Positions 6,881 through 38,854 of a stretch of 64,000 nucleotides of DNA are shown here, one piece after another; within the stretch, counting starts at the first letter, position 1, and each line of letters starts with the position of its first letter. Under the pieces are notes generated by a model, which saw nothing but the letters and a program-made list of their open reading frames with translations, searched no databases and was not told where the DNA came from. The DNA is from Odiellus spinosus (Eukaryota > Arthropoda > Arachnida > Opiliones > Phalangiidae): NCBI GenBank assembly GCA_963920705.1, contig CAWUCO010000291.1, positions 1,798,001-1,862,000 of the forward strand. The letters run 5' to 3'. The translations under genes were made by a program, and so were the position numbers.

Positions 6881-6884
6881 CTAT

Positions 6885-6903
6885 GCGTTCAAATATTGAA
6901 CGC
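6885..6903. repeat. Orientation switch 1: palindrome joining A(+) to B(-)
   Basis: Forward A units meet reverse B units here. The joint is a perfect inverted repeat, GCGTTCAA-ATA-TTGAACGC, centred at 6894. The last forward unit is also irregular: CTATGCGTTC lacks one G of the usual CTATGGCGTTC. Both subfamily and orientation change at this one point. Confidence 0.93.
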
Positions 6904-9900
6904 CAAAGATTGACAGCCAAAGATTGAACGCCAAAGATTGAACGCCAAGGATTGAACGCCAAATATTGAACGCCAAAGATTGAACGCCTAATATTGAACG
7001 CCAAATATTGAACGAAAAATATTGAACGCCAAATATTGAACGCCAAAGTTTGAACGCCAAAGATTGACAGCCAAAGATTGAACGCCAATGATTGAACGCC
7101 AAGGATTGAACGCCAAATGTTGAACGCCAAAGATTGAACGCCAAAGATTGAACGCCAAATATTGAACGCCAAAGATTGAACGCCAAATATTGAACGCCAA
7201 ATATTGAATGCCAAATATTGAAGACCAAATATTGAACGCCAAAGATTGAACGCCAAATACTTACAGCCAAATACTTACAGCCAAAGATTGAACGCCAAAG
7301 AGTGAACGCCAAATATTGAACGCCAAAGATTGAACGCCAAATATTGAACGCTAAAGATTGAACGCCAAATATTGAACGCCAAATATTGAACGCCAAAGAT
7401 TGAACGCCAAATATTGAACGCCAAATATTGTGCGCCAAATATTGAACGCCAAAGATTGAACGCCAAAGATTGAAAGCCAAATATTGTACGCCGAATATTG
7501 AACGCCAAAAATTGAACGCCAAATATTGAACGCCAAATATTGAACACCAAAGGTTGAACGCCAAATATTGAACGCCAAATATTGAAAGCCAAAGATTGAA
7601 CGCCAAAGATTGAACGCCAAATATTGAACGCCAAAGATTGTGCGCCAAATATTGAACGCCAAAGATTGAATGCCAAATATTGAAGACCAAATATTGAACG
7701 CCAAAGATTGAACGCCAAGGATTGAACGCCAAAGATTGAACGCCAAGGATTGAAAGTCAAATATTGGACGCCAAATATTGAACGTTAAAGATTGAACGCC
7801 AAATATTGGACGCCAAAGATTGAACGCCAAAGATTGAACGCCAAATATTGAACGCTAAAGATTGAACGCCAAATATTGATCGCCAAAGATTAACGCCAGC
7901 ATTGAACGCCAAAGATTAACGCCAGCATTGAACGCCACAGATTGAACGCCAAATATTGAACGCCAAAGATTGAATGCCAAATATTGAACGCCAAATATTG
8001 TACGCCGAATATTGAACGCCAAAGATTGTGCGCAAAATATTGAACGCCAAAGATTGAACGCTAAAGATTGAACGCCAAAGATTGAACGAAAAAGATTGAA
8101 CTCCAAATATTGAACGCCAAAGATTGTGCGCCAAATATTGAACGCCAAAGATTGAATGCCAAATATTGAAGACCAAATATTGAACGCAAAATATTGAACG
8201 CCAAAGATTGAAGGCCAAAGATTGAACGCCAAAGATTGAACGCCAAGGAATGAACGCCAAATATTGGACGCCAAAGATTGAACGCCAAATATTGTACGCC
8301 GAATATTGAACGCCAAAAATTGAACGCCAAATATTGAACGCCAAATATTGAACGCCAAATATTGAAAGCCAAAGATTGAACGCCAAAGATTGAACTCCAA
8401 ATATTGAACGCCAAAGATTGTGCGCCAAATATTGAACGCCAAAGATTGAATGCCAAATATTGAAGACCAAATATTGAACGCCAAATATTGAACGCCAAAG
8501 ATTGAAGGCCAAAGATTGAACGCCAAAGACTGAACGCCAAAGATTGAACGCCAAATATTGAACGCCAAAGATTGAACGCCATAGATTGAACGACCAAGAT
8601 TGAACGCCAAAGATTGAACGCCAAAGATTGAACGCCAAATATTGAACGCCAAATATTGAAAGCCAAAGATTGAACGCCAAAGATTGAACGCCAAATATTG
8701 AACGCCAAAGATTGTGCGCCAAATATTGATCGCCAAAGATTGAATTCCAAATATTGAAGACCAAATATTGAACGCCAAATATTGAACGCCAAAGATTGAA
8801 CGCCAAAGATTGAACGCCAAAGATTGAACGCCAAAGATTGAACGCCAAAGATTGAACGCCAAGGATTGAACGCCAAAGATTGAACGCCAAGGATTGAAAG
8901 CCAAATATTGGACGCCAAATATTGAACGTTAAAGATTGAACGCCAAATTTTGGACGCCAAAGATTGAACGCCAAAGATTGAACGCCAAATATTGAACGCT
9001 AAAGATTGAACGCCAAATATTGAACGCCAAAGATTGAACGCCAAATATTGACAGCCAAAGATTGAACGCCAAAGATTGAACGCCAAGGATTCAACGCCAA
9101 ATATTGAACGCCAAAGATTGAACGCCTAATATTGAACGCCAAATATTGAACGCCAAATATTGAACGCCAAAGATTGAACGCCAAAGATTGACAGCGAAAG
9201 ATTGAACGCCAATGATTGAACGCCAAGGGTTGAACGCCAAATGTTGAACGCCAAAGATTGAACACCAAATATTGAACGCCAAATATTGAACGCCAAAGAT
9301 TGAACGCCAAATATTGAACGCCAAATATTAAACGCCAAAGATTGAATGCCAAATATTGAACGCCAAAGATTGTGCGCCAAATATTGAAAGCCAAAGATTG
9401 AATGCCAAATATTGAAGACCAAATATTGAACGCAAAATATTGAACGCCAAAGATTGAACGCCAAAGATTGAACGCCAAAGATTGAACGCCAAAGATTGAA
9501 CGCCAAGGAATGAACGCCAAATATTGGACGCCAAAGATTGAACGCCAAATATTGTACGCCGAATATTGAACGCCAAAAATTGAACGCCAAATATTGAACG
9601 CCAAATATTGAAAGCCAAAGATTGAACGCCAAAGATTGAACGCCAAAGATTGAACGACAAAGATTGAACGCCAAATATTGAACGCTAAAGATTGAACGCC
9701 AAATATTGAACGCCAAAGATTAACGCCAGCATTGAACGCCAAAGATTAACGCCAGCATTGAACGCCACAGATTGAACGCCAAATATTGAACGCCAAAGAT
9801 TGAATGCCAAATATTGAACGCCAAATATTGTACGCCGAATATTGAACGCCAAAGATTGTGCGCCAAATATTGAACGCTAAAGATTGAACGCTAAAGATTG

Positions 9901-12900
9901 AACGCCAAAGATTGAACGCCAAAGATTGAACTCCAAATATTGAACGCCAAAGATTGTGCGCCAAATATTGAACGCCAAAGATTGAATGCCAAATATTGAA
10001 GACCAAATATTGTGCGCCAAATATTGAACGCCAAAGATTGAACGCTTAAGATTGAACGCCAAAGATTGAACGCCAAAGATTGAACGCCAAGGAATGAACG
10101 CCAAATATTGGACGCCAAAGATTGAACGCCAAAGATTGAACGCCAAAGATTGAACGCCAAAGATTGAACGCCAAAGATTGAACGCCGAAGATTGAACGCC
10201 AAATATTGAACGCCAAAGAATGAACGCCAAATTTTGAACGCCAAAGATTGTGCGCCAAATATTGAACGCCAAAGATTGAATGCCAAATATTGAACGCCAA
10301 AGATTGAACGCCAAGGATTGAACGCCAAAGATTGAACGCCAAGGATTGAAAGCCAAATATTGGACGCCAAATATTGAACGTTAAAGATTGAACGCCAAAT
10401 ATTGGACGCAAAAGATTGAACGCCAAAGATTGAACGCCAAATATTGAACGCTAAAGATTGAACGCCAAATATTGAACGCCAAAGATTAACGCCAGCATTG
10501 AACGCCAAAGATTAACGCCAGCATTGAACGCCACAGATTGAACGCCAAATATTGAACGCCAAAGATTGAATGCCAAATATTGAACGCCAAATATTGTACG
10601 CCGAATATTGAACGCCAAAGATTGTGCGCCAAATATTGAACGCCAAAGATTGAACGCTAAAGATTGAACGCCAAAGATTGAACGCCAAAGATTGAACTCC
10701 AAATATTGAACGCCAAAGATTGTGCGCCAAATATTGAACGCCAAAGATTGAATGCCAAATATTGAAGACCAAATATTGTGCGCCAAATATTGAACGCCAA
10801 AGATTGAACGCTAAAGATTGAACGCCAAAGATTGAACGCCAAAGATTGAACGCCAAGGAATGAACGCAAAATATTGGACGCCAAAGATTGAACGCCAAAG
10901 ATTGAACGCCAAAGATTGAACGCCAAAGATTGAACGCCAAAGATTGAACGCCGAAGATTGAACGCCAAATATTGAACGCCAAAGAATGAACGCCAAATTT
11001 TGAACGCCAAAGATTGTGCGCCAAATATTGAACGCCAAAGATTGAATGCCAAATATTGAAGACCAAATATTGAACGTAAAATATTGAACGCCAAAGATTG
11101 AACGCCAAAGATTGAACGCCAAAGATTGAACGCCAATGATTGAACGCCAAAGATTGAACGCCAAAGATTAACGCCAGCATTGAACGCCAAAGATTAACGC
11201 CAGCATTGAACGCCACAGATTGAACGCCAAATATTGAACGCCAAAGATTGAACGCCAAATATTGAACGCCAAATATTGAACGCCAAATATTGAACGCCAA
11301 AGATTGAACGATAAAGATTGAACGCCAAATATTGAACGCCAAAGACTGAACGCCAAATTTTGAACGCCAAAGATTGAACGCCAAATATTGAACGCCAAAG
11401 ATTGTTCGCCAAATATTGAACGCTAAAGATTGAACGCCAAATATTGAACGCCAAATATTGAACGCCAAAGATTGAACGCCAAATATTGAACGCCAAAGAT
11501 TGTGCGCCAAATATTGAACGCCAAAGAATGAATGCCAAATATTGAAGACCAAATATTGAACGCCAAATATTGAACGCCAAAGATTGAACGCCAAAGATTG
11601 AACGCCAAATATTAACGCCAGCATTGAACGCCAAAGATTAACGCCAGCATTGAACGCCACAGATTGAACGCCAAATATTGAACGCCAAAGATTGAACGCC
11701 AAATATTGAACGCCAAATATTGAACGCCAAAGATTGAACGATAAAGATTGAACGCCAAATATTGAACGCCAAAGATTGAACGCCAAATTTTGAACGCCAA
11801 AGATTGAACGCCAAATATTGACCGCCAAAGATTGTTCGCCAAATATTGAACGCCAAAGATTGAATGCCAAATATTGAAGACCAAATATTGGACACCAAAG
11901 ATTGAACGCCAAAGATTGAACGCCAAATATTGAACGCCAAAGATTGAACGCCAAAGATTGAACGCCAAAGATTGAACGCCAATTATTGGACGCCAAAGAT
12001 TGAACGCCAATTATTGGACGCCAAAGATTGAACGCCAAAGATTGAACGCCAAATATTGGACGCCAAAGATTGAACGCCAAAGATTTAACGCCAAATATTG
12101 GACGCCAAAGATTGAACGCCAAATATTGAACGCCAAAGATTGACAGCCAAAGATTGAACGCCAAAGATTGAACGCCAAGGATTGAACGCCAAATATTGAA
12201 CGCCAAAGATTGAACGCCTAATATTGAACGCCAAATATTGAACGAAAAATATTGAACGCCAAATATTGAACGCCAAAGTTTGAACGCCAAAGATTGACAG
12301 CCAAAGATTGAACGCCAATGATTGAACGCCAAGGATTGAACGCCAAATGTTGAACGCCAAAGATTGAACGCCAAAGATTGAACGCCAAATATTGAACGCC
12401 AAAGATTGAACGCCAAATATTGAACGCCAAATATTGAATGCCAAATATTGAAGACCAAATATTGAACGCCAAAGATTGAACGCCAAATACTTACAGCCAA
12501 ATACTTACAGCCAAAGATTGAACGCCAAAGAGTGAACGCCAAATATTGAACGCCAAAGATTGAACGCCAAAGATTGAACGCCAAATATTGTACGCCGAAT
12601 ATTGAACGCCAAAAATTGAACGCCAAATATTGAACGCCAAATATTGAACACCAAAGGTTGAACGCCAAATATTGAACGCCAAATATTGAAAGCCAAAGAT
12701 TGAACGCCAAAAATTGAACGCCAAATATTGAACGCCAAAGATTGTGCGCCAAATATTGAACGCCAAAGATTGAATGCCAAATATTGAAGACCAAATATTG
12801 AACGCCAAAGATTGAACGCCAAGGATTGAACGCCAAAGATTGAACGCCAAGGATTGAAAGCCAAATATTGGACGCCAAATATTGAACGTTAAAGATTGAA

Positions 12901-15900
12901 CGCCAAATATTGGACGCCAAAGATTGAACGCCAAAGATTGAACGCCAAATATTGAACGCTAAAGATTGAACGCCAAATATTGATCGCCAAAGATTAACGC
13001 CAGCATTGAACGCCAAAGATTAACGCCAGCATTGAACGCCACAGATTGAACGCCAAATATTGAACGCCAAAGATTGAATGCCAAATATTGAACGCCAAAT
13101 ATTGTACGCCGAATATTGAACGCCAAAGATTGTGCGCCAAATATTGAACGCCAAAGATTGAACGCTAAAGATTGAACGCCAAAGATTGAACGAAAAAGAT
13201 TGAACTCCAAATATTGAACGCCAAAGATTGAAGGCCAAAGATTGAACGCCAAGGAATGAACGCCAAATATTGGACGCCAAAGATTGAACGCCAAATATTG
13301 TACGCCGAATATTGAACGCCAAAAATTGAACGCCAAATATTGAACGCCAAATATTGAACGCCAATTATTGAAAGCCAAAGATTGAACGCCAAAGATTGAA
13401 CTCCAAATATTGAATGCCAAAGATTATGCGCCAAATATTGAACGCCAAAGATTGAATGCCAAATATTGAAGACCAAATATTGAACGCCAAATATTGAACG
13501 CCAAAGATTGAAGGCCAAAGATTGAACGCCAAAGACTGAACGCCAAGGAATGAACGCCAAATATTGGACGCCAAAGATTGAACGCCAAATATTGTACGCC
13601 GAATATTGAACGCCAAAAATTGAACGCCAAATATTCAACGCCAAATATTGAACGCCAATTATTGAAAGCCAAAGATTGAACGCCAAAGATTGAACTCCAA
13701 ATATTGAATGCCAAAGATTATGCGCCAAATATTGAACGCCAAAGATTGAATGCCAAATATTGAAGACCAAATATTGAACGCCAAATATTGAACGCCAAAG
13801 ATTGAAGGCCAAAGATTGAACGCCAAAGACTGAACGCCAAAGATTGAACGCCAAAGATTGAACGCCAAAGATTGAACGCCATAGATTGAACGACCAAGAT
13901 TGAACGCCAAAGATTGAACGCCAAAGATTGAACGCCAAATATTGAACGCCAAATATTGAAAGCCAAAGATTGAACGCCAAAGATTGAACGCCAAATATTG
14001 AACGCCAAAGATTGTGCGCCAAATATTGAACGCCAAAGATTGAATTCCAAATATTGAAGACCAAATATTGAACGCCAAATATTGAACGCCAAAGATTGAA
14101 CGCCAAAGATTGAACGCCAAAGATTGAACGCCAAAGATTGAACGCCAAAGATTGAACGCCAAGGATTGAACGCCAAAGATTGAACGCCAAGGATTGAAAG
14201 CCAAATATTGGACGCCAAATATTGAACGTTAAAGATTGAACGCCAAATTTTGGACGCCAAAGATTGAACGCCAAAGATTGAACGCCAAATATTGAACGCT
14301 AAAGATTGAACGCCAAATATTGAACGCCAAAGATTGAACGCCAAATATTGACAGCCAAAGATTGAACGCCAAAGATTGAACGCCAAGGATTGAACGCCAA
14401 ATATTGAACGCCAAAGATTGAAAGCCTAATATTGAACGCCAAATATTGAACGCCAAATATTGAACGCCAAAGATTGAACGCCAAAGATTGACAGCGAAAG
14501 ATTGAACGCCAATGATTGAACGCCAAGGGTTGAGCGCCAAATGTTGAACGCCAAAGATTGAACACCAAATATTGAACGCCAAATATTGAACGCCAAAGAT
14601 TGAACGCCAAATATTGAACGCCAAATATTGAACGCCAAAGATTGAATGCCAAATATTGAACGCCAAAGATTGTGCGCCAAATATTGAAAGCCAAAGATTG
14701 AATGCCAAATATTGAAGACCAAATATTGAACGCAAAATATTGAACGCCAAAGATTGAACGCCAAAGATTGAACGCCAAAGATTGAACGCCAAAGATTGAA
14801 CGCCAAGGAATGAACGCCAAATATTGGACGCCAAAGATTGAACGCCAAATATTGTACGCCGAATATTGAACGCCAAAAATTGAACGCCAAATATTGAAAG
14901 CCAAATATTGAACGCCAAATATTGAAAGCCAAAGATTGAACGCCAAAGATTGAACCCCAAATATTGAACGCCAAAGATTGTGCGCCAAATATTGAACGCA
15001 AAATATTGAACGAAAAAGATTGAACGCCAAAGATTGAACGCCAAAGATTGAACGCCAAGGAATGAACGCATAATATTGGACGCCAAAGATTGAACGCCAA
15101 AAATTGAACGCCAAATATTGAACGCCAAATATTGAAAGCCAAAGATTGAACGCCAAAGATTGAACTCCAAATATTGAACGCCAAAGATTGTGCGCCAAAT
15201 ATTGAACGCCAAAGATTGAATGCCAAATATTGAAGACCAAATATTGAACGCCAAATATTGAACGCCAAAGATTGAACACCAAAGATTGAACGCCAAAGAT
15301 TGAACGCCAAAGATTGAACGCCAAAGATTGAACGCCAAGGATTGAACGCCAAAGATTGAACGCCAAAGATTGAACGCCAAAGATTGAACGCCAAATATTG
15401 AACGCTAAAGATTGAACGCCAAATATTGAACGCCAAAGATTAACGCCAGCATTGAACGCCAAAGATTAACGCCAGCATTGAACGCCACAGATTGAACGCC
15501 AAATATTGAACGCCAAAGATTGAATGCCAAATATTGAACGCCAAATATTGTACGCCGAACATTGAACGCCAAAGATTGTGCGCCAAATATTGAACGCCAA
15601 AGATTGAATGCCAAATATTGAAGACCAAATATTGTGCGCCAAATATTGAACGCCAAAGATTGAACGCTTAAGATTGAACGCCAAAGATTGAACGCCAAAG
15701 ATTGAACGCCAAGGAATGAACGCCAAATATTGGACGCCAAAGATTGAACGCCAAAGATTGAACGCCAAAGATTGAACGCCAAAGATTGAACGCCAAAGAT
15801 TGAACGCCGAAGATTGAACGCCAAATATTGAACGCCAAAGAATGAACGCCAAATTTTGAACGCCAAAGATTGAACGCCGAAGATTGAACGCCAAATATTG

Positions 15901-16000
15901 AACGCCAAGGATTGAACGCCAAAGATTGAACGCCAAGGATTGAACGCCAAATATTGGACGCCAAATATTGAACGTTAAAGATTGAACGCCAAAGATTGAA
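6894..16000 (-). repeat. 5.1-5.7-kb segmental tandem duplication in reverse block B
   Basis: Sequence from 6891 matches sequence from 12121 base for base for several hundred bases (offset 5,230). This includes the double unit with CTTACAGCC at about 7259 and 12489. The offset then changes in unit-sized steps: 5,104 near 7.8 kb, 5,300 near 8.6-9.1 kb, 5,720 near 9.7 kb. That is what losses and gains of 9 to 30 units would give. All four offsets leave remainder 8 when divided by 14, which is what five 13-bp modules in the interval predict. The left copy is cut by the orientation switch at 6894. Confidence 0.85.
10512..13016 (-). other. Longest stop-free run (834 codons); not called as a gene
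   Basis: This is the longest ATG-started open frame in the window. Its product is nothing but the 14-residue satellite peptide LAFNLWRSIFGVQS and its I/Y form LAFNIWRSIFGVQY, with the 13-bp modules read as AFNAGVNLWRS and LALIFGVQ. Other frames on the same strand are open over much of the interval and read the same peptide in other registers. That is expected from a stop-free unit whose length is not a multiple of three. There is no signal peptide, recognisable domain or non-repeat segment. Open frames elsewhere have the same explanation, and their strand simply follows repeat orientation. Confidence 0.9.
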
Positions 16001-16088
16001 CGCCAAATATAGAACGCTAAAGATTGAACGCCAAATATTGAACGCCAAATATTGAACGCCAAAGATTGAACGCCAAAGATTGAACGCC

Positions 16089-16558
16089 AAAGATTAACGC
16101 CAGCATTGAACGCCAAAGATTGAACGCCAAATATTGAACGCAAAATATTGAACGTCACAGATTAAACGCCAAATATTGAACGCCAAATATTGAACGCCAA
16201 AGATTGAACGCCAAAGATTGAACGCCAAGGATTGAACGCCAAATATTGGACGCCAAATATTGAACGTTAAAGATTGAACGCCAAAGATTGAACGCCAAAT
16301 ATAGAACGCTAAAGATTGAACGCCAAATATTGAACGCCAAATATTGAACGCCAAAGATTGAACGCCAAAGATTGAACGCCAAAGATTAACGCCAGCATTG
16401 AACGCCAAAGATTGAACGCCAAATATTGAACGCAAAATATTGAACGTCACAGATTAAACGCCAAATATTGAACGCCAAATATTGAACGCCAAAGATTGAA
16501 CGCCAAAGATTGAACGCCAAAGATTGAACGCCAAAGATTAACGCCAGCATTGAACGCC
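16089..16558 (-). repeat. 292-bp local duplication carrying single 13-bp modules
   Basis: Single, not paired, 13-bp modules start at 16089, 16381 and 16533. The first two sit in near-identical segments 292 bp apart, each with a unit containing AACGTCACAGATTAAACG and another containing TATAGAACGC. The offset is 21 units less two bases, as expected with one single module. Another single module is at 17229. Confidence 0.8.
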
Positions 16559-17624
16559 AAAGATTGAACGCCAAATATTGAACGCCAAATATTGAACGTC
16601 ACAGATTGAACGCCAAATATTGAACGCCAAAGATTGAACGCCAAATATTGAACGCCAAATATTGAACGCCAAAGATTGAACGCCAAAGATTGAACGCCAA
16701 ATATTGAACGCCAAAGATTGAACGCCAAATTTTGAACGCCAAAGATTGAACGCCAAATATTGAACGCCAAAGATTGTTCGCCAAATATTGAACGCCAAAG
16801 ATTGAATGCCAAATATTGAAGACCAAATATTGAACGCCAAATATTGGACGCCAAAGATTGAACGCCAAAGATTGAACGCCAAATATTGAACGCCAAAGAT
16901 TGAACGCCAAATATTGAACGCCAAAGATTGAACGCCAAATATTAGACGCCAAAGATTGAACGCCAAAGATTGAACTCCAAATATTAGACGCCAAAGATTG
17001 AACGCCAAAGATTGAACGCCAAAGATTGACAGCCAAAGATTGAACACCAAAGATTGAACGCCAAGGATTGAACGCCAAATATTGAACGCCAAAGACTGAA
17101 CGCCTAATATTGAACGCCAGCATTGAACGCCAAAGATTGAACACCAAATATTGAACGCCAAATATTGAACGCCAAAGATTGAACGCCAAATATTGAACGC
17201 TAAAGATTGAACGCAAAATATTGACGCCAAAGATTAACGCCAGCATTGAACGCCAAAGATTGAACGCCAAAGATTGAACGCCAAATATTGAACGCCAAAG
17301 ATTGAACGCCAAAGATTGAACGCCAAATATTGAACGCCAAAGATTGAACGCCAAAGATTGATCGCCAAATATTGGACGCCAAAGATTGAACGCCAAAGAT
17401 TTAACGCCAAATATTGGACGCCAAAGATTGAACGCCAAAGATTGACAGCCAAAGATTGAACGCCAAAGATTGAACGCCAAGGATTGAACGCCAAATATTG
17501 AACGCCAAAGATTGAACGCCTAATATTGAACGCCAAATATTGAACGCCAAATATTGAACGCCAAATATTGAACGCCAAAGATTGAACGCCAAAGATTGAC
17601 AGCCAAAGATTGAACGCCAAAGAT

Positions 17625-17960
17625 TGAATGCCAAATATTGAACGCCAAAGATTGTGCGCCAAATATTGAAAGCCAAAGATTGAATGCCAAATATTGAAGA
17701 ACAAATATTGAACGCAAAATATTGAACGCCAAAGATTGAACGCCAAATATTGAACGCCAAATATTGAACGCCAAATATTGAACGCCAAAGATTGAATGCC
17801 AAATATTGAACGCCAAAGATTGTGCGCCAAATATTGAAAGCCAAAGATTGAATGCCAAATATTGAAGAACAAATATTGAACGCAAAATATTGAACGCCAA
17901 AGATTGAACGCCAAAGATTGAACGCCAAAGATTGAACGCCAAATATTGAACGCCAAGAAA
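17625..17960 (-). repeat. 168-bp tandem duplication
   Basis: GAAGAACAAATATTG occurs at 17696 and 17864, exactly 12 units apart. The preceding units, with GAATGCC, TTGTGCGCC and GAAAGCC, occur in the same order in both copies. This is a small recent duplication inside reverse block B. Confidence 0.85.
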
Positions 17961-19026
17961 TGAACGCCAAATATTGGACGCCAAAGATTGAACGCCAAAT
18001 ATTGTACGCCGAATATTGAACGCCAAAAATTGAACGCCAAATATTGAAAGCCAAAGATTGAACGCCAAAGATTGAACGCCAAAGATTGAACGCCAAATAT
18101 TGAACGCCAAGGAATGAACGCCAAATATTGGACGCCAAAGATTGAACGCCAAATATTGTACGCCGAATATTGAACGCCAAAAATTGAACGCCAAATATTA
18201 AAAGCCAAATATTGAACGCCAAATATTGAAAGCCAAAATTGAACGCCAAAGATTGAACTCCAAATATTGAACGCCAAAGATTGTGCGCCAAATATTGAAC
18301 GCCAAAGATTGAATGCCAAATATTGAAGACCAAATATTGAACGCAAAATATTGAACGCCAAAAGATTGAACGCCAAAGATTGAACGCCAAAGATTGAACG
18401 CCAAGGAATGAACGCCAAATATTGGACGCCAAAGATTGAACGCCAAATATTGTACGCCGAATATTGAACGCCAAAAATTGAACGCCAAATATTGAACACC
18501 AAATATTGAACGCCAAATATTGAAAGCCAAAGATTGAACGCCAAAGATTGAACTCCAAATATTGAACGCCAAAGATTGTGCGCCAAATATTGAACGCCAA
18601 AGATTGAATGCCAAATATTGAAGACCAAATATTGAACGCCAAATATTGAACGCCAAATATTGAAAGCCAAAGATTGAACGCCAAAGATTGAACTCCAAAA
18701 ATTGAACGCCAAAGATTGTGCGCCAAATATTGAACGCCAAAGATTGAATGCCAAATATTGAAGACCAAATATTGAAAGCCAAATATTGAACGCCAAATAT
18801 TGTACGCCGAATATTGAACGCCAAAGATTGTGCGCCAAATATTGAACGCCAAAGATTGAACGCTAAAGATTGAACGCCAAAGATTGAACGCCAAAGATTG
18901 AACTCCAAATATTGAACGCCAAAGATTGTGCGCCAAATATTGAACGCCAAAGATTGAATGCCAAATATTGAAGACCAAATATTGTGCGCCAAATATTGAA
19001 CGCCAAAGATTGAACGCTAAAGATTG
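17755..19026 (-). repeat. Inverted partner of 38847-40120
   Basis: Read on the minus strand from 19026, this segment matches the plus strand from 38847 almost unit for unit: 18992 pairs with 38881 and 18838 with 39035. One base of slippage by 18195/39678 matches an extra A in this copy near 18361. The match fails near 17760/40120. The pair forms a 1.27-kb inverted repeat about 20 kb apart. Confidence 0.85.
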
Positions 19027-22000: not shown

Positions 22001-22159
22001 AATATTGGACGCCAAAGATTGAACGCCAAATATTGAACGCCAAAGATTGACAGCCAAAGATTGAACGCCAATGATTGAACGCCAAGGATTGAACGCCAAA
22101 TGTTGAACGCCAAAGATTGAACGCCAAAGATTGAACGCCAAAGATAGAACGCCAAAGAT

Positions 22160-24510: not shown

Positions 24511-26040
24511 AAATATTGAACGCCAAGGATTGAACGCCAAATGTTGAACGCCAAAGATTGAACGCCAAAGATTGAACGCCAAATATTGAACGCCAAAGAT
24601 TGAACGCCAAATATTGAACGCCAAATATTGAATGCCAAATATTGAAGACCAAATATTGAACGCAAAAGATTGAACGCCAAATACTTACAGCCAAAGATTG
24701 AACGCCAAAGAGTGAACGCCAAATATTGAACGCCAAAGATTGAACGCCAAATATTGAACGCCAAATATTGTGCGCCAAATATAGAACGCCAAACATTGAA
24801 CGCCGCCAAATATTGAACGCTAAAGATTGAACGCCAATATTGAACGCCAAATATTGAACGCCAAAGATTGAACGCCAAATATTGAACGCCAAATATTGTG
24901 CGCAAAATATTGAACGCCAAAGATTGAATGCCAAATATTGAAGACCAAATATTGAACGCCAAATATTGAACGCCAAAGTCTGAACGCCAAAGATTGAACG
25001 CCAAAGATTGAACGCCAAAGATTGAACGCCAAAGATTGAACGCCAAAGATTGAACGCCAAAGATTGAACGACAAAGATTGAACGCCAAAGATTGAACGCC
25101 AAATATTGTACGCCGAATATTGAACGCCAAAAATTGAACGCCAAATATTGAACGCCAAATATTGAACACCAAAGGTTGAACGCCAAATATTGAACGCCAA
25201 ATATTGAAAGCCAAAGATTGAACGCCAAAGATTGAACGCCAAATATTGAACGCCAAAGATTGTGCGCCAAATATTGAACGCTAAAGATTGAACGCCAAAT
25301 ATTGAATGCCAAATATTGAACGCCAAAGATTGAACGCCAAATATTGAACGCCAAAGATTGTGCGCCAAATATTGAACGCCAAAGAATGAATGCCAAATAT
25401 TGAAGACCAAATATTGAACGCCAAATATTGAACGCCAAAGATTGAACGCCAAAGATTGAACGCCAAAGATTGAACGCCAAAGATTGAATGCCAAAGATTA
25501 AACGCCAAAGATTAACGCCAGCATTGAACGCCAAAGATTAACGCCAGCATTGAACGCCACAGATTGAACGCCAAATATTGAACGCCAAGGATTGAACGCC
25601 AAATGTTGAACGCCAAATATTGAATGCCAAATATTGAAGACCAAATATTGAACGCAAAAGATTGAACGCCAAAGATTGAACGCCAAATACTTACAGCCAA
25701 AGATTGAACGCCAAAGAGTGAACGCCAAATATTGAACGCCAAAGATTGAACGCCAAATATTGAACGCCAAATATTGTGCGCCAAATATAGAACGCCAAAC
25801 ATTGAACGCCAAATATTGAACGCTAAAGATTGAACGCCAAATATTGAACGCCAAATATTGAACGCCAAAGATTGAACGCCAAATATTGAACGCCAAATAT
25901 TGTGCGCAAAATATTGAACGCCAAAGATTGAATGCCAAATATTGAAGACCAAATATTGAACGCCAAATATTGAACGCCAAAGTCTGAACGCCAAAGGTTG
26001 AACGCCAAAGATTGAACGCCAAAGATTGAAAGCCAAATAT

Positions 26041-26095
26041 TGAAGACCAAATGTTGAACGCCAAATATTGAACGTCAAATATTTAACGCCAAAGA
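26041..26095 (-). repeat. Border between subfamilies B and A without orientation change
   Basis: On the left the last B-type unit is GAAGACCAAATG (sense GGTCTTC). On the right the first A-type units are AACGTCAAATATTTAACG followed by TTGTACGCAAAAGTGTG. Orientation and the 14-bp grid continue across the change, so this looks like a true subfamily border within one array. The exact base cannot be fixed because the intervening unit, sense GGCGTTCAACATTT, occurs in both subfamilies. Confidence 0.82.
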
Positions 26096-29063
26096 TTGTA
26101 CGCAAAAGTGTGAACGCCAAAGATTGAACGCCAAAGATTGAACGCCTAGGATTGAATGCCAAAGATTGAACGCCAAATATTGAACGCCAAAGATTGAACG
26201 CCAAAGATTGAACGCCAACGATTGAAAGCCAAGAATTAAACGCCAAAGATTGAACTTCAAATATTGAACGCCAAAGATTGAACGCCAAATATTGAACGCC
26301 AAAGATTGAACGCCAAAGATTGAACGCCAAAGATTGAACGCCAAAGATTGAACGCCAAAGATTGAACGCCAAATATTGTTCGCCAAAGATTGAACGCCAA
26401 AAATTGAACGCCATAATTTGAACGCTAAATATTGAACGCCAAAGATTGAACGCCAAAGATTGAACGCCAAATATTGAACGTCAAAGATTGAACGCTAAAT
26501 ATTGAACGCCAAAGATTGAACGCCAAATATTGAAAGCCAAATATTGAACGCCAAATATTGAACGCCAAATATAGAACGCCAAATATAGAACGCCAAATAT
26601 TGAACGCCAAATATTGAACACCAAATATTGAACGCCAAAAATTGAACGCCAAATATTGACGCCAAAGTTTGTACGCCAAAGATTGAACGCCAAAGATTGA
26701 ACGCCAAAGATTGAACGCCAAAGATTGAACGCCAAAGATTGAACGCCAAATATTGAACGCCAAACTGTGAACGCCAATGTATGAACGCCAAAGATTGAAC
26801 GCCATAGATTGAACATTAAAGATTGAACGCCAAAGATTGAACGCCAAAGATTGAACGCCAAATATTGAACGAAAAAGATTGAACACCAAAGATTGAACGC
26901 CAAAGTTTGAACGCCAAAGATTGGACGCCAAAGATTGAACTTCAAATATTGAACGCAAAAGATTGAACGCCAAAGATTGAACGCCATAGATTGAACGCCA
27001 AATATTGAACGCCAAAGATTGAACACCAAAGATTGAACTCCAAAGTTTGAACGCCAAAGATTGGACGCCAAAGATTGAACTTCAAATATTGAACGCCAAA
27101 GATTGAACGCCAAATATTGAACGCCAAAGATTGAACGCCAAAGACTGAACGCCAAAGATTGAACGCGAAATATTGAACGTCAAATATTGAACACCAAAGA
27201 TTGAACGACAAAGTGTGAACGCCAAAGATTGAACGCCAAAGACTGAACGCCAAATATTGAACGTCAAATATTGAACACCAAAGATTGAACGACAAAGTGT
27301 GAACGCCAAAGATTGAACGCCAAAGATTGAACGCCAAAGACTGAACGCCAAAGATTGAACGCCAAATATTGAACGTCAAATATTGAACACCAAAGATTGA
27401 ACGACAAAGTGTGAACGCCAAAGATTGAACGCCAAAGATTGAACGCCAAATATTGAACGCCAAATGTTGAACGCCAAAGATTGAACGTCAAAGATTGAAC
27501 GTCAAAGATTGAGCTCCAAAGATTGAACGCCAAGAATTAAACGCCAAAGATTGAACGCCAAAGATTGAACGCCAAATATTGAACGCTTAAGATTGAACGC
27601 CAAAGATTGAACGCCATGGATTGAACGCAAAGATTGAACGCCATAGATTGAACGCCAAATATTGAACGCCAAAGATTGAACACCAAAGATTGAACGCCAA
27701 AGATTGAACGCCATAATTTGAACGCTAAATATTGAACGCCAAAGATTGAACGCCAAAGATTGAACGCCAAAGATTGAACGCCAAATATTGAACGCCAAAG
27801 ATTGAACGCTAAATATTGAACGCCAAAGATTGAACGCCAAATATTGAAAGCCAAATATTGAACACCAAATATTGAACGCCAAAAATTGAACGCCAAATAT
27901 TGAACGCCAAAGTTTGAACGCCAAAGATTGAACGCCAAAGATTGAACGCCAAAGATTGAACGCCAAAGATTGAACGCCAAAGATTGAACGCCAAAGATTG
28001 AACGCCAAATATTGAACGCCAAACTGTGAACGCCAATGTATGAACGCCAAAGATTGAACGCCATAGATTGAACATTAAAGATTGAACGCCAAAGATTGAA
28101 CGCCAAAGATTGAACGCCAAAGATTGAACGCCAAATATTGAACGAAAAAGATTGAACACCAAAGATTGAACGCCAAAGTTTGAACGCCAAAGATTGGACG
28201 CCAAAGATTGAACTTCAAATATTGAACGCAAAAGATTGAACGCCAAAGATTGAACGCCATAGATTGAACGCCAAATGTTGAACGCCAAAGATTGAACGTC
28301 AAAGATTGAACGTCAAAGATTGAGCTCCAAAGATTGAACGCCAAGAATTAAACGCCAAAGATTGAACGCCAAAGTTTGAACGCCAAAGATTGGACGCCAA
28401 AGATTGAACTTCAAATATTGAACGCCAAAGATTGAACGCCAAATATTGAACGCCAAAGATTGAACGCCAAAGACTGAACGCCAAAGATTGAACGCGAAAT
28501 ATTGAACGTCAAATATTGAACACCAAAGATTGAACGACAAAGTGTGAACGCCAAAGATTGAACGCCAAAGATTGAACGCCAAAGATTGAACGCCAAAGAC
28601 TGAACGCCAAAGATTGAACGCCAAATATTGAACGTCAAATATTGAACACCAAAGAATGAACGACAAAGTGTGAACGCCAAAGATTGAACGCCAAAGATTG
28701 AACGCTAAAGACTGAACGCCAAAGATTGAACGCCAAATATTGAACGTCAAATATTGAAAACCAAAGATTGAACGACAAAGTGTGAACGACAAATATTGAA
28801 CGCCAAAGATTGAACGCAAAATATTGAACGCCAAAGATTGAAGGGCAAATATTGAACGCCAAATATTGAACGCCAAATATATAACGCCAAATATTGAGCG
28901 CCAACGATTGAACGCCAAATATTGAACGCCAAAGTTTGAACGCCAAAGATTGATCGCCAAAGACTGAACGCCAAAGATTGAACGACAAAGATTGAACGCC
29001 AAATATTGAACGTCAAATATTGAACACCAAAGATTGAACGACAAAGTGTGAACGCAAAAGATT

Positions 29064-32000
29064 GAGCTCCAAAGATTGAACGCCAAGAATTAAACGCCAA
29101 AGATTGAACGCCAAAGATTGAACGCCAAATATTGAACGCTTAAGATTGAACGCCAAAGATTGAACGCCATGGATTGAACGCCAAAGATTGAACGCCATAG
29201 ATTGAACACCAAATATTGAACGCCAAAGATTGAACACCAAAGATTGAACGCCAAAGATTGAATGCCAAAGATTGAACGCCAAATATTGAACGCCAAAGAT
29301 TGAACGCTAAATATTGAACGCCAAAAATTGAACGCCAAATATTGAAAGCCAAATATTGAACGCCAAATATTGAACGCCAAATATTGAACGCCAAATATTG
29401 AACGCCAAATATTGAACGCCAAATATTGAACACCAAATATTGAACGTCAAAAATTGAACGCCAAATATTGAACGCCAAAGTTTGAACGCCAAAGATTGAA
29501 CGCCAAAGATTGAACGCCAAGAATTAAACGCCAAAGATTGAACGCCAAAGATTGAACGCCAAATATTGAACGCTTAAGATTGAACGCCAAAGACTGAACG
29601 CCAGAGATTGAACGCCAAAGACTGAACGAAAAAGATTGAGCTCCAAAGATTGAACGCCAAGAATTAAACGCCAAAGATTGAACGCCAAAGATTGAACGCC
29701 AAATATTGAACGCTTAAGATTGAACAACAAAGACTGAACGACAAAGATTGAACGCCAAATATTGAACGTCAAATATTGAACACCAAAGATTGAACGACAA
29801 AGTGTGAACGCCAAAGATTGAACGCCAAAGATTGAACGCCAAATATTGAACGCCAAATGTTGAACGCCAAAGATTGAACGCCAAATATTGAACGCCAAAT
29901 ATTGAACGCCAAATATTGAACACCAAATATTGAACGTCAAAAATTGAACGCCAAATATTGAACGCCAAAATTTTAACGCCAAAGATTGAACGCCAAAGAT
30001 TGAACGCCAAAGATTGAACGCCAAATATTGAACGCCAAACTGTGAACGCCAATGTATGAACGCCAAAGATTGAACGCCATAGATTGAACATTAAAGATTG
30101 AACGCCAAATATTGAACGCCAAAGATTGAACACCAAAGATTGAACGCCAAAGTTTGAACGCCAAATATTGAACGTCAAATATTGAACACCAAAGATTGAA
30201 CGACAAAGTGTGAACGCAAAAGATTGAACGCCAAAGATTGAACGCCAAATATTGAACGCCAAATGTTGAACGACAAAGATTGAACGTCAAAGATTGAACG
30301 TCAAAGATTGAGCTCCAAACATTGAACGCCAAGAATTAAACGCCAAAGATTGAACGCCAAAGATTGAACGCCAAATATTGAACGCTTAAGATTGAACGCC
30401 AAAGATTGAACGCCATGGATTGAACGCCAAAGATTGAACGCCATAGATTGAACACCAAATATTGAACGCCAAAGATTGAACACCAAAGATTGAACGCCAA
30501 AGATTGAATGCCAAAGATTGAACGCCAAATATTGAACGCCAAAGATTGAACGCTAAATATTGAACGCCAAAAATTGAACGCCAAATATTGAAAGCCAAAT
30601 ATTGAACGCCAAATATTGAACGCCAAATATTGAACGCCAAATATTGAACGCCAAATATTGAACGCCAAATATTGAACACCAAATATTGAACGTCAAAAAT
30701 TGAACGCCAAATATTGAACGCCAAAGTTTGAACGCCAAAGATTGAACGCCAAGAATTAAACGCCAAGAATTAAACGCCAAAGATTGAACGCCAAAGATTG
30801 AACGCCAAATATTGAACGCTTAAGATTGAACGCCAAAGACTGAACGCCAGAGATTGAACGCCAAAGACTGAACGAAAAAGATTGAGCTCCAAAGATTGAA
30901 CGCCAAGAATTAAACGCCAAAGATTGAACGCCAAAGATTGAACGCCAAATATTGAACGCTTAAGATTGAACAACAAAGACTGAACGACAAAGATTGAACG
31001 CCAAATATTGAACGTCAAATATTGAACACCAAAGATTGAACGACAAAGTGTGAACGCCAAAGATTGAACGCCAAAGATTGAACGCCAAATATTGAACGCC
31101 AAATGTTGAACGCCAAAGATTGAACGCCAAATATTGAACGCCAAATATTGAACGCCAAATATTGAACACCAAATATTGAACGTCAAAAATTGAACGCCAA
31201 ATATTGAACGCCAAAATTTGAACGCCAAAGATTGAACGCCAAAGATTGAACGCCAAAGATTGAACGCCAAATATTGAACGCCAAACTGTGAACGCCAATG
31301 TATGAACGCCAAAGATTGAACGCCATAGATTGAACATTAAAGATTGAACGCCAAATATTGAACGCCAAAGATTGAACACCAAAGATTGAACGCCAAAGTT
31401 TGAACGCCAAATATTGAACGTCAAATATTGAACACCAAAGATTGAACGACAAAGTGTGAACGCAAAAGATTGAACGCCAAAGATTGAACGCCAAATATTG
31501 AACGCCAAATGTTGAACGACAAAGATTGAACGTCAAAGATTGAACGTCAAAGATTGAGCTCCAAAGATTGAACGCCAAGAATTAAACGCCAAAGATTGAA
31601 CGCCAAAGATTGAACGCCAAATATTGAACGCTTAAGATTGAACGCCAAAGATTGAACGCCATGGATTGAACGCCAAAGATTGAACGCCATAGATTGAACA
31701 CCAAATATTGAACGCCAAAGATTGAACACCAAAGATTGAACGCCAAAGATTGAATGCCAAAGATTGAACGCCAAATATTGAACGCCAAAGATTGAACGCT
31801 AAATATTGAACGCCAAAAATTGAACGCCAAATATTGAAAGCCAAATATTGAACGCCAAATATTGAACGCCAAATATTGAACGCCAAATATTGAACGCCAA
31901 ATATTGAACGCCAAATATTGAACACCAAATATTGAACGTCAAAAATTGAACGCCAAATATTGAACGCCAAAGTTTGAACGCCAAAGATTGAACGCCAAAG

Positions 32001-33615
32001 ATTGAACGCCAAGAATTAAACGCCAAAGATTGAACGCCAAAGATTGAACGCCAAATATTGAACGCTTAAGATTGAACGCCAAAGACTGAACGCCAGAGAT
32101 TGAACGCCAAAGACTGAACGAAAAAGATTGAGCTCCAAAGATTGAACGCCAAGAATTAAACGCCAAAGATTGAACGCCAAAGATTGAACGCCAAATATTG
32201 AACGCTTAAGATTGAACAACAAAGACTGAACGACAAAGATTGAACGCCAAATATTGAACGTCAAATATTGAACACCAAAGATTGAACGACAAAGTGTGAA
32301 CGCCAAAGATTGAACGCCAAAGATTGAACGCCAAATATTGAACGCCAAATGTTGAACGCCAAAGATTGAACGCCAAATATTGAACGCCAAATATTGAACG
32401 CCAAATATTGAACACCAAATATTGAACGTCAAAAATTGAACGCCAAATATTGAACGCCAAAATTTGAACGCCAAAGATTGAACGCCAAAGATTGAACGCC
32501 AAAGATTGAACGCCAAATATTGAACGCCAAACTGTGAACGCCAATGTATGAACGCCAAAGATTGAACGCCATAGATTGAACATTAAAGATTGAACGCCAA
32601 ATATTGAACGCCAAAGATTGAACACCAAAGATTGAACGCCAAAGTTTGAACGCCAAATATTGAACGTCAAATATTGAACACCAAAGATTGAACGACAAAG
32701 TGTGAACGCAAAAGATTGAACGCCAAAGATTGAACGCCAAATATTGAACGCCAAATGTTGAACGACAAAGATTGAACGTCAAAGATTGAACGTCAAAGAT
32801 TGAGCTCCAAAGATTGAACGCCAAGAATTAAACGCCAAAGATTGAACGCCAAAGATTGAACGCCAAATATTGAACGCTTAAGATTGAACGCCAAAGATTG
32901 AACGCCATGGATTGAACGCCAAAGATTGAACGCCATAGATTGAACACCAAATATTGAACGCCAAAGATTGAACACCAAAGATTGAACGCCAAAGATTGAA
33001 TGCCAAAGATTGAACGCCAAATATTGAACGCCAAAGATTGAACGCTAAATATTGAACGCCAAAAATTGAACGCCAAATATTGAAAGCCAAATATTGAACG
33101 CCAAATATTGAACGCCAAATATTGAACGCCAAATATTGAACGCCAAATATTGAACGCCAAATATTGAACACCAAATATTGAACGTCAAAAATTGAACGCC
33201 AAATATTGAACGCCAAAGTTTGAACGCCAAAGATTGAACGCCAAAGATTGAACGCCAAGAATTAAACGCCAAAGATTGAACGCCAAAGATTGAACGCCAA
33301 ATATTGAACGCTTAAGATTGAACGCCAAAGACTGAACGCCAGAGATTGAACGCCAAAGACTGAACGAAAAAGATTGAGCTCCAAAGATTGAACGCCAAGA
33401 ATTAAACGCCAAAGATTGAACGCCAAAGATTGAACGCCAAATATTGAACGCTTAAGATTGAACAACAAAGACTGAACGACAAAGATTGAACGCCAAATAT
33501 TGAACGTCAAATATTGAACACCAAAGATTGAACGACAAAGTGTGAACGCCAAAGATTGAACGCCAAAGTTTGAACGCCAAATATTGAACGCCAAATGTTG
33601 AACGCCAAAGATTGA
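29064..33615 (-). repeat. 1,246-bp higher-order repeat, about 3.65 copies
   Basis: Marker sites recur every 1,246 bp (89 units exactly). GAGCTCC occurs at 29064, 30310, 31556 and 32802; CCATGG at 29167, 30413, 31659 and 32905; ACTGTG at 30039, 31285 and 32531. Copies are almost identical. Single differences include TTTTAACG at about 29971 in copy 1, CCAAACATTG at about 30317, and a shorter unit run near 30740-30770. Copy 4 breaks off near 33615. A related partial copy lies 1,708 bp on, at about 34893-35170. The near identity suggests recent amplification by unequal exchange. Confidence 0.93.
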
Positions 33616-36600
33616 ACGTCAAAGATTGAACGACAAAGATTGAGCTTCAAAGATTGAACGCCATAATTTGAACGCCAAAGATTGAACGCCAAATATTGAA
33701 CGCCAAAGTGTGAACGCCAAATTATGAACGCAAAAGATTGAACGCCAAAGATTGAACGCCAAAAACTGAACGCCAAAGATTGAACGCCAACGATTGAACG
33801 CTTAAGATTGAACGCCAAAGATTGAACGCCATGGATTGAACGCCAAAGATTGAACGCCATAGATTGAACACCAAATATTGAACGCCAAAGATTGAACACC
33901 AAAGATTGAACGCCAAAGATTGAACGCCATAATTTGAACGCTAAATATTGAACGCCAAAGATTGAACGCCAAAGATTGAACGCCAAAGATTGAACGCCAA
34001 ATATTGAACGCCAAAGATTGAACGCTAAATATTGAACGCCAAAGATTGAACGCCAAATATTGAAAGCCAAATATTGAACGCCAAATATTGAACGCCAAAT
34101 ATTGAACGCCAAATATTGAACGCCAAATATTGAACGCCAAATATTGAACACCAAATATTGAACGTCAAAAATTGAACGCCAAATATTGAACGCCAAAATT
34201 TGAACGCCAAAGATTGAACGCCAAAGATTGAACGCCAAAGATTGAACGCCAAATATTGAACGCCAAACTGTGAACGCCAATGTATGAACGCCAAAGATTG
34301 AACGCCATAGATTGAACATTAAAGATTGAACGCCAAATATTGAACGCCAAAGATTGAACACCAAAGATTGAACGCCAAAGTTTGAACGCCAAAGATTGGA
34401 CGCCAAAGATTGAACTTCAAATATTGAACGCAAAAGATTGAACGCCAAAGATTGAACGCCATAGATTGAACGCCAAATATTGAACGCCAAAGATTGAACA
34501 CCAAAGATTGAACGCCAAAGTTTGAACGCCAAAGATTGGACGCCAAAGATTGAACTTCAAATATTGAACGCCAAAGATTGAACGCCAAATATTGAACGCC
34601 AAAGATTGAACGCCAAAAAATGAACGCCAAAGATTGAACGCCAAATATTGAACGTCAAATATTGAACACCAAAGATTGAACGACAAAGTGTGAACGCCAA
34701 AGAATGAACGCCAAAGATTGAAGGCCAAAGATTGAACGCCAAAGACTGAACGCCAAAGATTGAACGCTAAATATTGAACGCCAAAAATTGAACGCCAAAT
34801 ATTGAAAGCCAAATATTGAACGCCAAATATTGAACGCCAAATATTGAACGCCAAAAATTGAACGCCAAATATTGAAAGCCAAATATTGAACGTCAAAAAT
34901 TGAACGCCAAATATTGAACGCCAAAGTTTGAACGCCAAAGATTGAACGCCAAAGATTGAACGCCAAGAATTAAACGCCAAAGATTGAACGCCAAAGATTG
35001 AACGCCAAATATTGAACGCTTAAGATTGAACGCCAAAGACTGAACGCCAGAGATTGAACGCCAAAGACTGAACGAAAAAGATTGAGCTCCAAAGATTGAA
35101 CGCCAAGAATTAAACGCCAAAGATTGAACGCCAAAGATTGAACGCCAAATATTGAACGCTTAAGATTGAACAACAAAGACTGAACGACAAAGATTGAACG
35201 CCAAATATTGAACGCCAAAGATTGAACGCCAAATATTGAACGCCAAATGTTGAACGCCAAAGATTGAACGTCAAAGATTGAACGACAAAGATTGAGCTTC
35301 AAAGATTGAACGCCATAATTTGAACGCCAAAGATTGAACGCCAAATATTGAACGCCAAAGTGTGAACGCCAAATTATGAACGCAAAAGATTGAACGCCAA
35401 AGATTGAACGCCAAAGACTGAACGCCAAAGATTGAACGCCAACGATTGAACGCTTAAGATTGAACGCCAAAGATTGAACGCCATGGATTGAACGCCAAAG
35501 ATTGAACGCCATAGATTGAACACCAAATATTGAACGCCAAAGATTTAACGCCAAAGATTGAACTTCAAATATTGAACGCAAAAGATTGAACGCCAAAGAT
35601 TGAACGCCAAAGATTGAACGCCATAGATTGAACGCCAAATATTGAACGCCAAAGATTGAACACCAAAGATTGAACGCCAAAGTTTGAACGCCAAAGATTG
35701 GACGCCAAAGATTGAACTTCAAATATTGAACGCCAAAGATTGAACGCCAAATATTGAACGCCAAAGATTGAACGCCAAAGAATGAACGCCAAAGATTGAA
35801 CGCCAAATATTGAACGTCAAATATTGAACACCAGAGATTGAACGACAAAGTGTGAACGCCAAAGAATGAACGCCAAAGATTGAAGGCCAAAGATTGAACG
35901 CCAAAGACTGAACGCCAAAGATTGAACGCCAAATATTGAACGCCAAAGACTGAACGCCAAAGATTGAACGACAAAGATTGAACGCCAAATATTGAACGCC
36001 AAATGTTGAACGCCAAAGATTGAACGTCAAAGATTGAACGTCAAAGATTGAACGCCAAATATTGAACGCTTAAGATTTAACGCCAAAGATTGAACGTCAT
36101 GTTTTGAACGCCAAAGATTGAACGCCATAGATTGAACGCCAAATATTGAACGCCAAATTGTGAACGCCAAAGTATGAACGCCAAAAATTGAACGCCAAAG
36201 ATTGAACGCCATAGATTGAACGCAAAAGTATGAACGCCAAAGATTGAACGCCAAAGATTGAACGCCAAATATTGAACGCCAAATATTGAACGTCAAATAT
36301 TTAACGCCAAAGATTGTACGCAAAAGTGTGAACGCCAAAGATTGAACGCCAAAGATTGAACGCCAAAGATTGAACGCCTAGGATTGAATGCCAAAGATTG
36401 AACGCCAAATATTGAACGCCAAAGATTGAACGCCAAAGATTGAACGCCAAAGATTGAAAGCCAAGAATTAAACGCCAAAGATTGAACGCCAAAGATTGAA
36501 CTTCAAATATTGAACGCCAAAGATTGAACGCCAAATATTGAACGCCAAAGATTGAACGCCAAAGATTGAACGCCAAAGATTGAACGCCAAATATTGTTCG

Positions 36601-36699
36601 CCAAAGATTGAACGCCAAAGTATGAACGCCAAAAATTGAACGCCAAAGATTGAACGCCATAGATTGAACGCAAAAGTAAGAACGCCAAAGATTGAACGC

Positions 36700-38800
36700 C
36701 AAAGATTGAACGCCAAATATTGAACGCCAAATATTGAACGTCAAATATTTAACGCCAAAGATTGTACGCAAAAGTGTGAACGCCAAAGATTGAACGCCAA
36801 AGATTGAACGCCAAAGATTGAACGCCTAGGATTGAATGCCAAAGATTGAACGCCAAATATTGAACGCCAAAGATTGAACGCCAAAGATTGAACGCCAAAG
36901 ATTGAAAGCCAAGAATTAAACGCCAAAGATTGAACGCCAAAGATTTAACTTCAAATATTGAACTCCAAAGATTGAACGCCAAATATTGAACGCCAAAGAT
37001 TGAACGCCAAAGATTGAACGCCAAAGATTGAACGCCAAAGATTGAACGCCAAAGATTGAACGCCAAATATTGTTCGCCAAAGATTGAACGCCAAAAATTG
37101 AACGCCATAATTTGATCGCTAAATATTGAACGCCAAAGATTGAACGCCAAAGATTGAACGCCAAAGATTGAACGCCAAATATTGAACGTCAAAGATTGAA
37201 CGCTAAATATTGAACGCCAAAGATTGAACGCCAAATATTGAAAGCCAAATATTGAACGCCAAATATTGAACGCCAAATATAGAACGCCAAATATAGAACG
37301 CCAAATATTGAACGCCAAATATTGAACGCCAAAGTTTGAACGCCAAAGATTGAACGCCAAAGATTGAACGCCAAAGATTGAACGCCAAAGATTGAACGCC
37401 AAAGATTGAACGCCAAATATTGAACGCCAAACTGTGAACGCCAATGTATGAACGCCAAAGATTGAACGCCATAGATTGAACATTAAAGATTGAACGCCAA
37501 AGATTGAACGCCAAAGATTGAACGCCAAAGTTTGAACGCCAAAGATTGGACGCCAAAGATTGAACTTCAAATATTGAACGCAAAAGATTGAACGCCAAAG
37601 ATTGAACGCCATAGATTGAACGCCAAATATTGAACGCCAAAGATTGAACACCAAAGATTGAACTCCAAAGTTTGAACGCCAAAGATTGGACGCCAAAGAT
37701 TGAACTTCAAATATTGAACGCCAAAGATTGAACGCCAAATATTGAAGGCCAAAGATTGAACGCAAAAGTAAGAACGCCAAAGATTGAACGCCAAAGATTG
37801 AACGCCAAATATTGAACGCCAAATATTGAACGTCAAATATTTAACGCCAAAGATTGTACGCAAAAGTGTGAACGCCAAAGATTGAACGCCAAAGATTGAA
37901 CGCCAAAGATTGAACGCCAAAGATTGAACGCCTAGGATTGAATGCCAAAGATTGAACGCCAAATATTGAACGCCAAAGATTGAACGCCAAAGATTGAACG
38001 CCAAAGATTGAAAGCCAAGAATTAAACGCCAAAGATTGAACGCCAAAGATTTAACTTCAAATATTGAACTCCAAAGATTGAACGCCAAATATTGAACGCC
38101 AAAGATTGAACGCCAAAGATTGAACGCCAAAGATTGAACGCCAAAGATTGAACGCCAAAGATTGAACGCCAAATATTGTTCGCCAAAGATTGAACGCCAA
38201 AAATTGAACGCCATAATTTGATCGCTAAATATTGAACGCCAAAGATTGAACGCCAAAGATTGAACGCCAAATATTGAACGTTAAAGATTGAACGCTAAAT
38301 ATTGAACGCCAAAGATTGAACGCCAAATATTGAAAGCCAAATATTGAACGCCAAATATTGAACGCCAAATATAGAACGCCAAATATAGAACGCCAAATAT
38401 TGAACGCCAAATATTGAACACCAAATATTGAACGCCAAAAATTGAACGCCAAATATTGAACGCCAAAGTTTGAACGCCAAAGATTGAACGCCAAAGATTG
38501 AACGCCAAAGATTGAACGCCAAAGATTGAACGCCAAAGATTGAACGCCAAATATTGAACGCCAAACTGTGAACGCCAATGTTTGAACGCCAAAGATTGAA
38601 CGCCATAGATTGAACATTAAAGATTGAACGAAAAAGATTGAACGCCAAAGATTGAACGCCAAAGATTGAACGCCAAAGTTTGAACGCCAAAGATTGGACG
38701 CCAAAGATTGAACTTCAAATATTGAACGCAAAAGATTGAACGCCAAAGATTGAACGCCATAGATTGAACGCCAAATATTGAACGCCAAAGATTGAACACC
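36700..38800 (-). repeat. 1,106-bp tandem duplication in reverse block A
   Basis: TTTGATCGCTAAAT occurs at 37111 and 38217, 1,106 bp (79 units) apart, and the flanking variant pattern matches across most of both copies. Further on the offset grows to 1,134 bp (ACTGTG at 37431 and 38565), so one copy has gained or lost two units. The right copy reaches almost to the orientation switch at 38846. Outer limits are approximate. Confidence 0.8.
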
Positions 38801-38828
38801 AAAGATTGAACTCCAAAGTTTGAACGAC

Positions 38829-38854
38829 AAAGATTGGACGCCAAATCAATCTTT
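38829..38854. repeat. Orientation switch 2: A(-) to B(+)
   Basis: Reverse A units end with GGACGCCAAAT and forward B starts directly with CAATCTTTAGCG. The joint is out of register: the first forward unit lacks its opening GGCGTT. Eight-base arms AAAGATTG (38829-38836) and CAATCTTT (38847-38854) flank a 10-base spacer. Such arms are expected wherever opposite units meet, so they need not have caused the switch. Confidence 0.92.

Follow-up and report, generated by a model that had tools for sequence, protein, structure and literature searches.

An inverted block of about 32 kb, probably flipped in place, in a 14-bp satellite array of Odiellus spinosus

Human structural variation includes inversions with flanking deletions or duplications, and inversions inside satellite arrays are already known as well, for example, in the primate alpha-satellite, whose monomer is about 171 bp long. 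In primate arrays, such inversions have been described and checked with ultra-long reads (PMC11062924), while the part of the Tribolium madens report drawn on here describes macro-dyad symmetries of the satellites TmSat1 and TmSat2, with inversion sites that are conserved and recurrent (2044 and 3486 sequences of two types) and with arms that tend to symmetry (PMC13081366). Here we describe a further example of this type of rearrangement, unusually easy to recognize and otherwise ordinary, in the arachnid Odiellus spinosus. The window, that is, the whole 64,000-bp stretch that was analyzed (positions 1,798,001 to 1,862,000 of contig CAWUCO010000291.1, hereafter C282:1798001-1862000), is 14-bp satellite throughout (TTCAATCTTTGGCG) and divides into three contiguous stretches, the middle one of which, a block of about 32 kb that contains the border between two satellite subfamilies, A and B, runs on the opposite strand.

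As in human inversions with flanking deletions or duplications, the flip is accompanied by a probable loss of sequence at a breakpoint; unlike in those, the breakpoints lie in satellite DNA, so that the lost length can be estimated from related copies only. To judge from the part of the primate report considered here, the case resembles the alpha-satellite inversions in that blocks of monomers change strand inside arrays (PMC11062924). It differs from them in the 14-bp monomer, in the 32-kb block size, in being known from an assembly alone, and in the internal A/B border, which lets the flip be recognized from one sequence. With the Tribolium satellites, as portrayed in the part of the report used here, it shares kilobase-scale inverted subarrays and transitions between two satellites (here, subfamilies), but not the conserved and recurrent inversion sites (PMC13081366): here, an exact search finds each junction pattern just once genome-wide, which sets this case apart, and about 88% of the array runs in one direction. 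Nor do arms of the same satellite face each other, as they do in the macro-dyads; different subfamilies meet at both junctions, where the perfect inverted arms measure 8 and 4 bp.

The features of the window are as follows (window coordinates; LINE, long interspersed nuclear element).

1..6893, (+) strand: subfamily A satellite, the end of a run of about 173 kb that begins at about C282:1631973 and is interrupted by one LINE insertion
6890..6893, no strand: left junction, A(+) to B(-); 3 bp (CAA) fit both sides; 8-bp perfect inverted arms with a 3-bp spacer
6894..26075, (-) strand: subfamily B part of the inverted block, from Tandem Repeats Finder, the 18-mer classifier, and word counts
26025..26125, (-) strand: A/B border, with the cumulative score minimum at C282:1824075; the sole border in the stretch read
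26076..38846, (-) strand: subfamily A part of the inverted block, from the classifier; holds the amplification of a 1246-bp unit
38845..38847, no strand: right junction, A(-) to B(+); overlap of 0-1 bp; longest perfect inverted arms of 4 bp (spacers up to 8 searched)
38847..64000, (+) strand: subfamily B satellite, which continues to about C282:1897082
38847..40124, (+) strand: inverted copy of window positions 17,749-19,026, 1278 bp from the junction; 1 mismatch in 1277 aligned bases, with one base unaligned in each

The satellite reads (+) over window positions 1-6893, (-) over 6894-38846, and (+) thereafter, and Tandem Repeats Finder accordingly reports 14-bp arrays at 1-6892, 6890-38845, and 38846-63998, with the middle one reverse-complemented. 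Strand-specific 10-base words (1628 forward and 1570 reverse in the window) separate completely, with 0 forward words within the block and 0 reverse words outside it, and the AT skew goes from about -0.4 to about +0.4 and back to about -0.4, switching at the block ends. Beyond the window, C282 was read contiguously over 1600-1922 kb and is known from 300-bp samples at 1928-2018 kb; genome-wide counts cover 443,074,358 bases in 286 contigs. Along C282, the satellite runs on the (+) strand at 1632-1804.893 kb and 1836.846-1897.082 kb and again beyond 1910.355 kb, and on the (-) strand at 1804.893-1836.846 kb, which is the window block, and at 1897.082-1910.355 kb, in a second, smaller block; all 16 sampled pieces at 1928-2018 kb are (+) and scored B. 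A 28-mer probe has 2873 forward and 344 reverse matches genome-wide, and all 344 of the latter are confined to the two compact blocks (221 in the window block and 123 in the second one); 2200 forward matches fall inside the contiguously read stretch and 673 outside it, where small minus pieces lacking the probe sequence could escape detection. Within the window, strand is reversed over one bounded block and is uniform on either side of it, as a simple inversion would have it.

Subfamilies A and B were told apart by an 18-mer classifier, trained for A on 1632-1712 and 1718-1790 kb and for B on 1845-1895 kb, the latter stretch overlapping the right end of the window but not the tested stretches. 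In bins of 500 bp, the left flank scored A in 10 of 10 and the right flank B in 11 of 11, whereas among the 64 bins of the block, counted from the right, the first 26 are A and the remaining 38 are B; the bins that had been kept out of training agree without exception (29/29 for A and 16/16 for B). The order in the window is A(+), B(-), A(-), B(+), with one sharp A/B border near 26,075. This is the order given in the original prediction, and word counts, AT skew, and the classifier all bear it out. Subfamily B is also marked by 13-bp monomers (80 in the block, 92 in the right flank within the window, and none in window positions 1-6893) and by a 19-base marker with GGCGCACAAT, which has 192 forward and 63 reverse matches, all 63 reverse ones lying within the two blocks; for another B marker there are 46 and 18 matches, all 64 within 1805-1911 kb. 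Therefore, reversing 6894-38846 yields, as had been proposed, a uniform (+) run with a single A-to-B border in all that was read (1922-2018 kb having been sampled), and the order of markers along the array is restored, as expected after a simple inversion.

Both halves of the block are kin to their immediate neighbors and do not look imported, which again agrees with a simple inversion. Mean 28-mer sharing of the block's A half with the A flank is 0.350 at 1760-1804 kb, 0.258 at 1718-1760 kb, and 0.224 at 1632-1712 kb; that of its B half with the B flank is 0.473 at 1838-1862 kb, 0.417 at 1862-1884 kb, and 0.326 at 1884-1896 kb. Each half is thus most similar to the nearest flank of the same subfamily, with similarity dropping with distance. 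Together with the restored order, this closeness to the nearest restored neighbor supports the proposal that one inversion explains the pattern.

Both junctions are sharp to a few bases, with overlaps of 3 bp at 6890-6892 and of 0-1 bp at 38845-38847, which may be due to chance in such repetitive DNA. The 27-base pattern at the left junction and the 25-base pattern at the right one occur once each in an exact genome-wide search. Because the perfect inverted arms are so short, pairing of inverted repeats is an unlikely driver of the flip; a fold-back palindrome was ruled out on the same grounds and because A meets B at both junctions. The block is probably an in-place inversion of about 32 kb inside a long, otherwise one-directional 14-bp satellite array, rejoined by end-joining with a probable loss of sequence. 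End-joining of two breaks is the simplest account, and we infer the breaks, the joining pathway, and the amount lost as follows. Two double-strand breaks would have occurred, one in A and the other in B, about 19 kb past the A/B border; the middle piece would have been flipped and rejoined by end-joining with an overlap of 0-3 bp; and kilobase-scale sequence would have gone missing, probably at the B joint and perhaps also at the A joint.

That the flip was probably not clean is suggested by related copies. Three exact 300-bp copies of the block's left end exist, and none leads into sequence resembling the right flank: the edits per 300 bp are 40, 40, and 49, where random in-register B pieces have a median of 37 (49 comparisons). 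Two of the three are tandem copies with an identical continuation and are therefore not independent, while the third continues with a sequence 16 edits away from theirs. Of the right flank there is a single exact 300-bp copy, preceded by sequence unlike the left end of the block (51 edits). Four left-end copies have a relative of the right flank downstream, the nearest being 1233-1597 bp on among the 10 pairs listed. Around the A joint, the gaps are 1778-3333 bp in the five best pairs but come down to 169, 197, and 617 bp in three lower-ranked pairs among the 14 shown, which makes this joint ambiguous. Through-matches are absent in 4 of 4 cases at the restored joints, but they are also absent at 118 of 200 random points in A and 89 of 200 in B, so that this absence says little by itself; a looser adjacency search did not discriminate, since pairs turned up for most randomly joined sites too (B, 21 of 24; A, 12 of 16). 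A variant in which staggered breaks led to an inversion with duplicated ends is not favored: the closest relatives of the end of the A flank, at 11 edits of 300, are found about 960 and 2070 bp into the block and not at its end.

Several observations weigh against the inversion, beginning with the fact that it is known from assembled sequence only. Its restored joints are out of 14-bp register, as had been foreseen, the A/A joint being about 2 bp short and the B/B joint about 7 bp short, and they do not read as intact array without loss or gain, as the joints of a simple inversion would. When 150 bp from each side were joined and the edits in the best match elsewhere were counted beyond the cost of the halves, the median excess was 0 at intact B sites (30 sites) and 14 at random B joins (30), and 1 at intact A sites (20) and 13.5 at random A joins (20). 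The restored joints score 15 (A/A) and 14 (B/B; 16 with the end moved by 2 bp) and in this resemble random joins, although part of the B/B value comes from the bases missing from the register, and single intact sites also score high (1 of 20 in A reaches 15, and 3 of 30 in B reach 13); neither restored joint is reproduced by any stretch elsewhere. Of the direct repeat pairs that are 300 bp or longer and separated by no more than 30 kb, one crosses the restored A/A joint (a count that equals or exceeds that at 11.9% of 134 A positions) and 33 cross the restored B/B joint (equaling or exceeding 98.0% of 101 B positions). These two counts are the strongest contrast among eight settings of the test, over which the B/B joint is at or above 74.3-99.0% of B positions and the A/A joint at or above 11.9-73.9% of A positions; taken together, the spanning repeats support a single inversion on the B side and are neutral on the A side. 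The orientation gradients give a weak signal, in which the restored sense has the better fit at either side of the window block (rank correlation of similarity with restored distance, -0.184 versus -0.137 in the opposite sense for A, and -0.079 versus 0.053 for B). Finally, the change of orientation is not unique, there being a second block nearby.

This second inverted block, of 13.3 kb (C282:1897083-1910355), lies within subfamily B, 60 kb downstream of the window block, and has 20-bp perfect inverted arms with a 3-bp spacer at its right junction. Its restored joints have excess edits of 10 and 9; the possibility that it is an insertion was rejected, as its two flanks joined directly give 14. 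Its rank correlations are -0.176 versus -0.218 and -0.094 versus 0.034, and the means of a left/right classifier along it are near zero, both with block ends that are off by about 7-30 bp. The two blocks total 45,226 bases, or about 11-12% of the array, which leaves about 88% running in one direction. The original prediction had allowed that many switches outside the window would weaken the single-inversion model; two blocks in an array of about 390 kb are few and do not overturn the model.

Among the other explanations, an assembly error, with a piece of the array placed backwards or chimeric molecules assembled, has to be considered since satellite arrays are hard to assemble, the block comes from an assembly, and neither restored joint resembles intact array. 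Scaffold flips usually leave runs of N, however, and there are none in the window or in 1600-1800 kb; overlap joins between opposite strands need matching sequence, of which the junctions offer inverted arms of just 8 and 4 bp; and in a fold-back chimera the two sides carry the same sequence, unlike the contacts between A and B seen at both junctions here. We therefore consider such an error unlikely. Inverted duplication, in which the block would be a backward copy of an A/B border that is still present in forward orientation elsewhere, is very improbable: no forward A/B border was seen in the stretch read, all 16 far samples score B, and the block's A half shares no inverted match longer than 670 bp with the A flank. 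In the B half, as much as 4.4 kb does match B(+) in inverted orientation at 99.45% identity, but the matches between the B half and B(+) are partial, and their identity is within the range of pairs inside B.

The first 1278 bp of the B(+) flank, counted from the junction, nearly duplicate a stretch from inside the block, which would fit replication template switching, as would the junction overlaps of 0-3 bp and the missing sequence between the relatives of the two B flanks. In that case, a fork would have copied A(+), switched strand in B, copied back over the border into A, and then switched to B(+), giving a product that resembles an inversion whose ends carry losses or templated copies. 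A simple switch back, however, would extend the duplicate to about 12 kb, whereas the close match ends after 1278 bp, and other exact 300-bp inverted pairs between block and flank sit away from the junction, so that such copies are not specific to it; on balance, we find this origin improbable. The 1278-bp copy itself may have been templated and inserted during the event, or it may go back to an older direct repeat that the loss cut into, and we lean to the older repeat because those other inverted 300-bp pairs are also exact. It is more doubtful still that template switching made the flip, with the copy templated in the same event and the second block of the same origin; if it did, fork switching would alter the strand of satellite arrays in addition to their copy number.

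If the block is an inversion, as we prefer to read it, its interest lies in the turnover of the array. Since unequal exchange should fail where the orientation switches, a flipped block with a subfamily border is a natural clock and barrier that can be used for studying satellite array turnover. Near-identical pairs across the flip suggest that it is young relative to this turnover, so that the inversion may still be polymorphic. The longest pairs, which reach 5003 bp on the same strand versus 1151 bp across the flip, count against a young age, and the identities of hand-picked pairs overlap (99.27-100% in ten within-strand pairs and 98.66-99.92% in four across the flip). Within the inverted A half, a 1246-bp unit is locally amplified at window positions 29,097-33,568, with copies that are 99.75% identical.

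The 14-bp array adjoins a 26-27-bp satellite at its left edge, at about C282:1631973, and ends on the right between 2018.3 and 2030.0 kb, where a 23-bp satellite appears, which gives it a length of about 386-398 kb, interrupted by one LINE insertion. With unlike satellites on its two sides, this part of the contig looks like a satellite mosaic. Used as sequence words, the monomer (both strands) and the two neighboring satellites gave no match in the set of papers searched, though the satellite may nonetheless have been described. The insertion, a LINE-type retrotransposon within the A part at C282 about 1713-1718 kb, has a 902-aa open frame with endonuclease and reverse transcriptase domains and, near its left end, a repeat spaced at 465 bp. 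Two identical 3585-bp copies lie 4.7 kb apart at C282:1886291-1894602, possibly as a result of a very recent duplication or of a duplication in the assembly.

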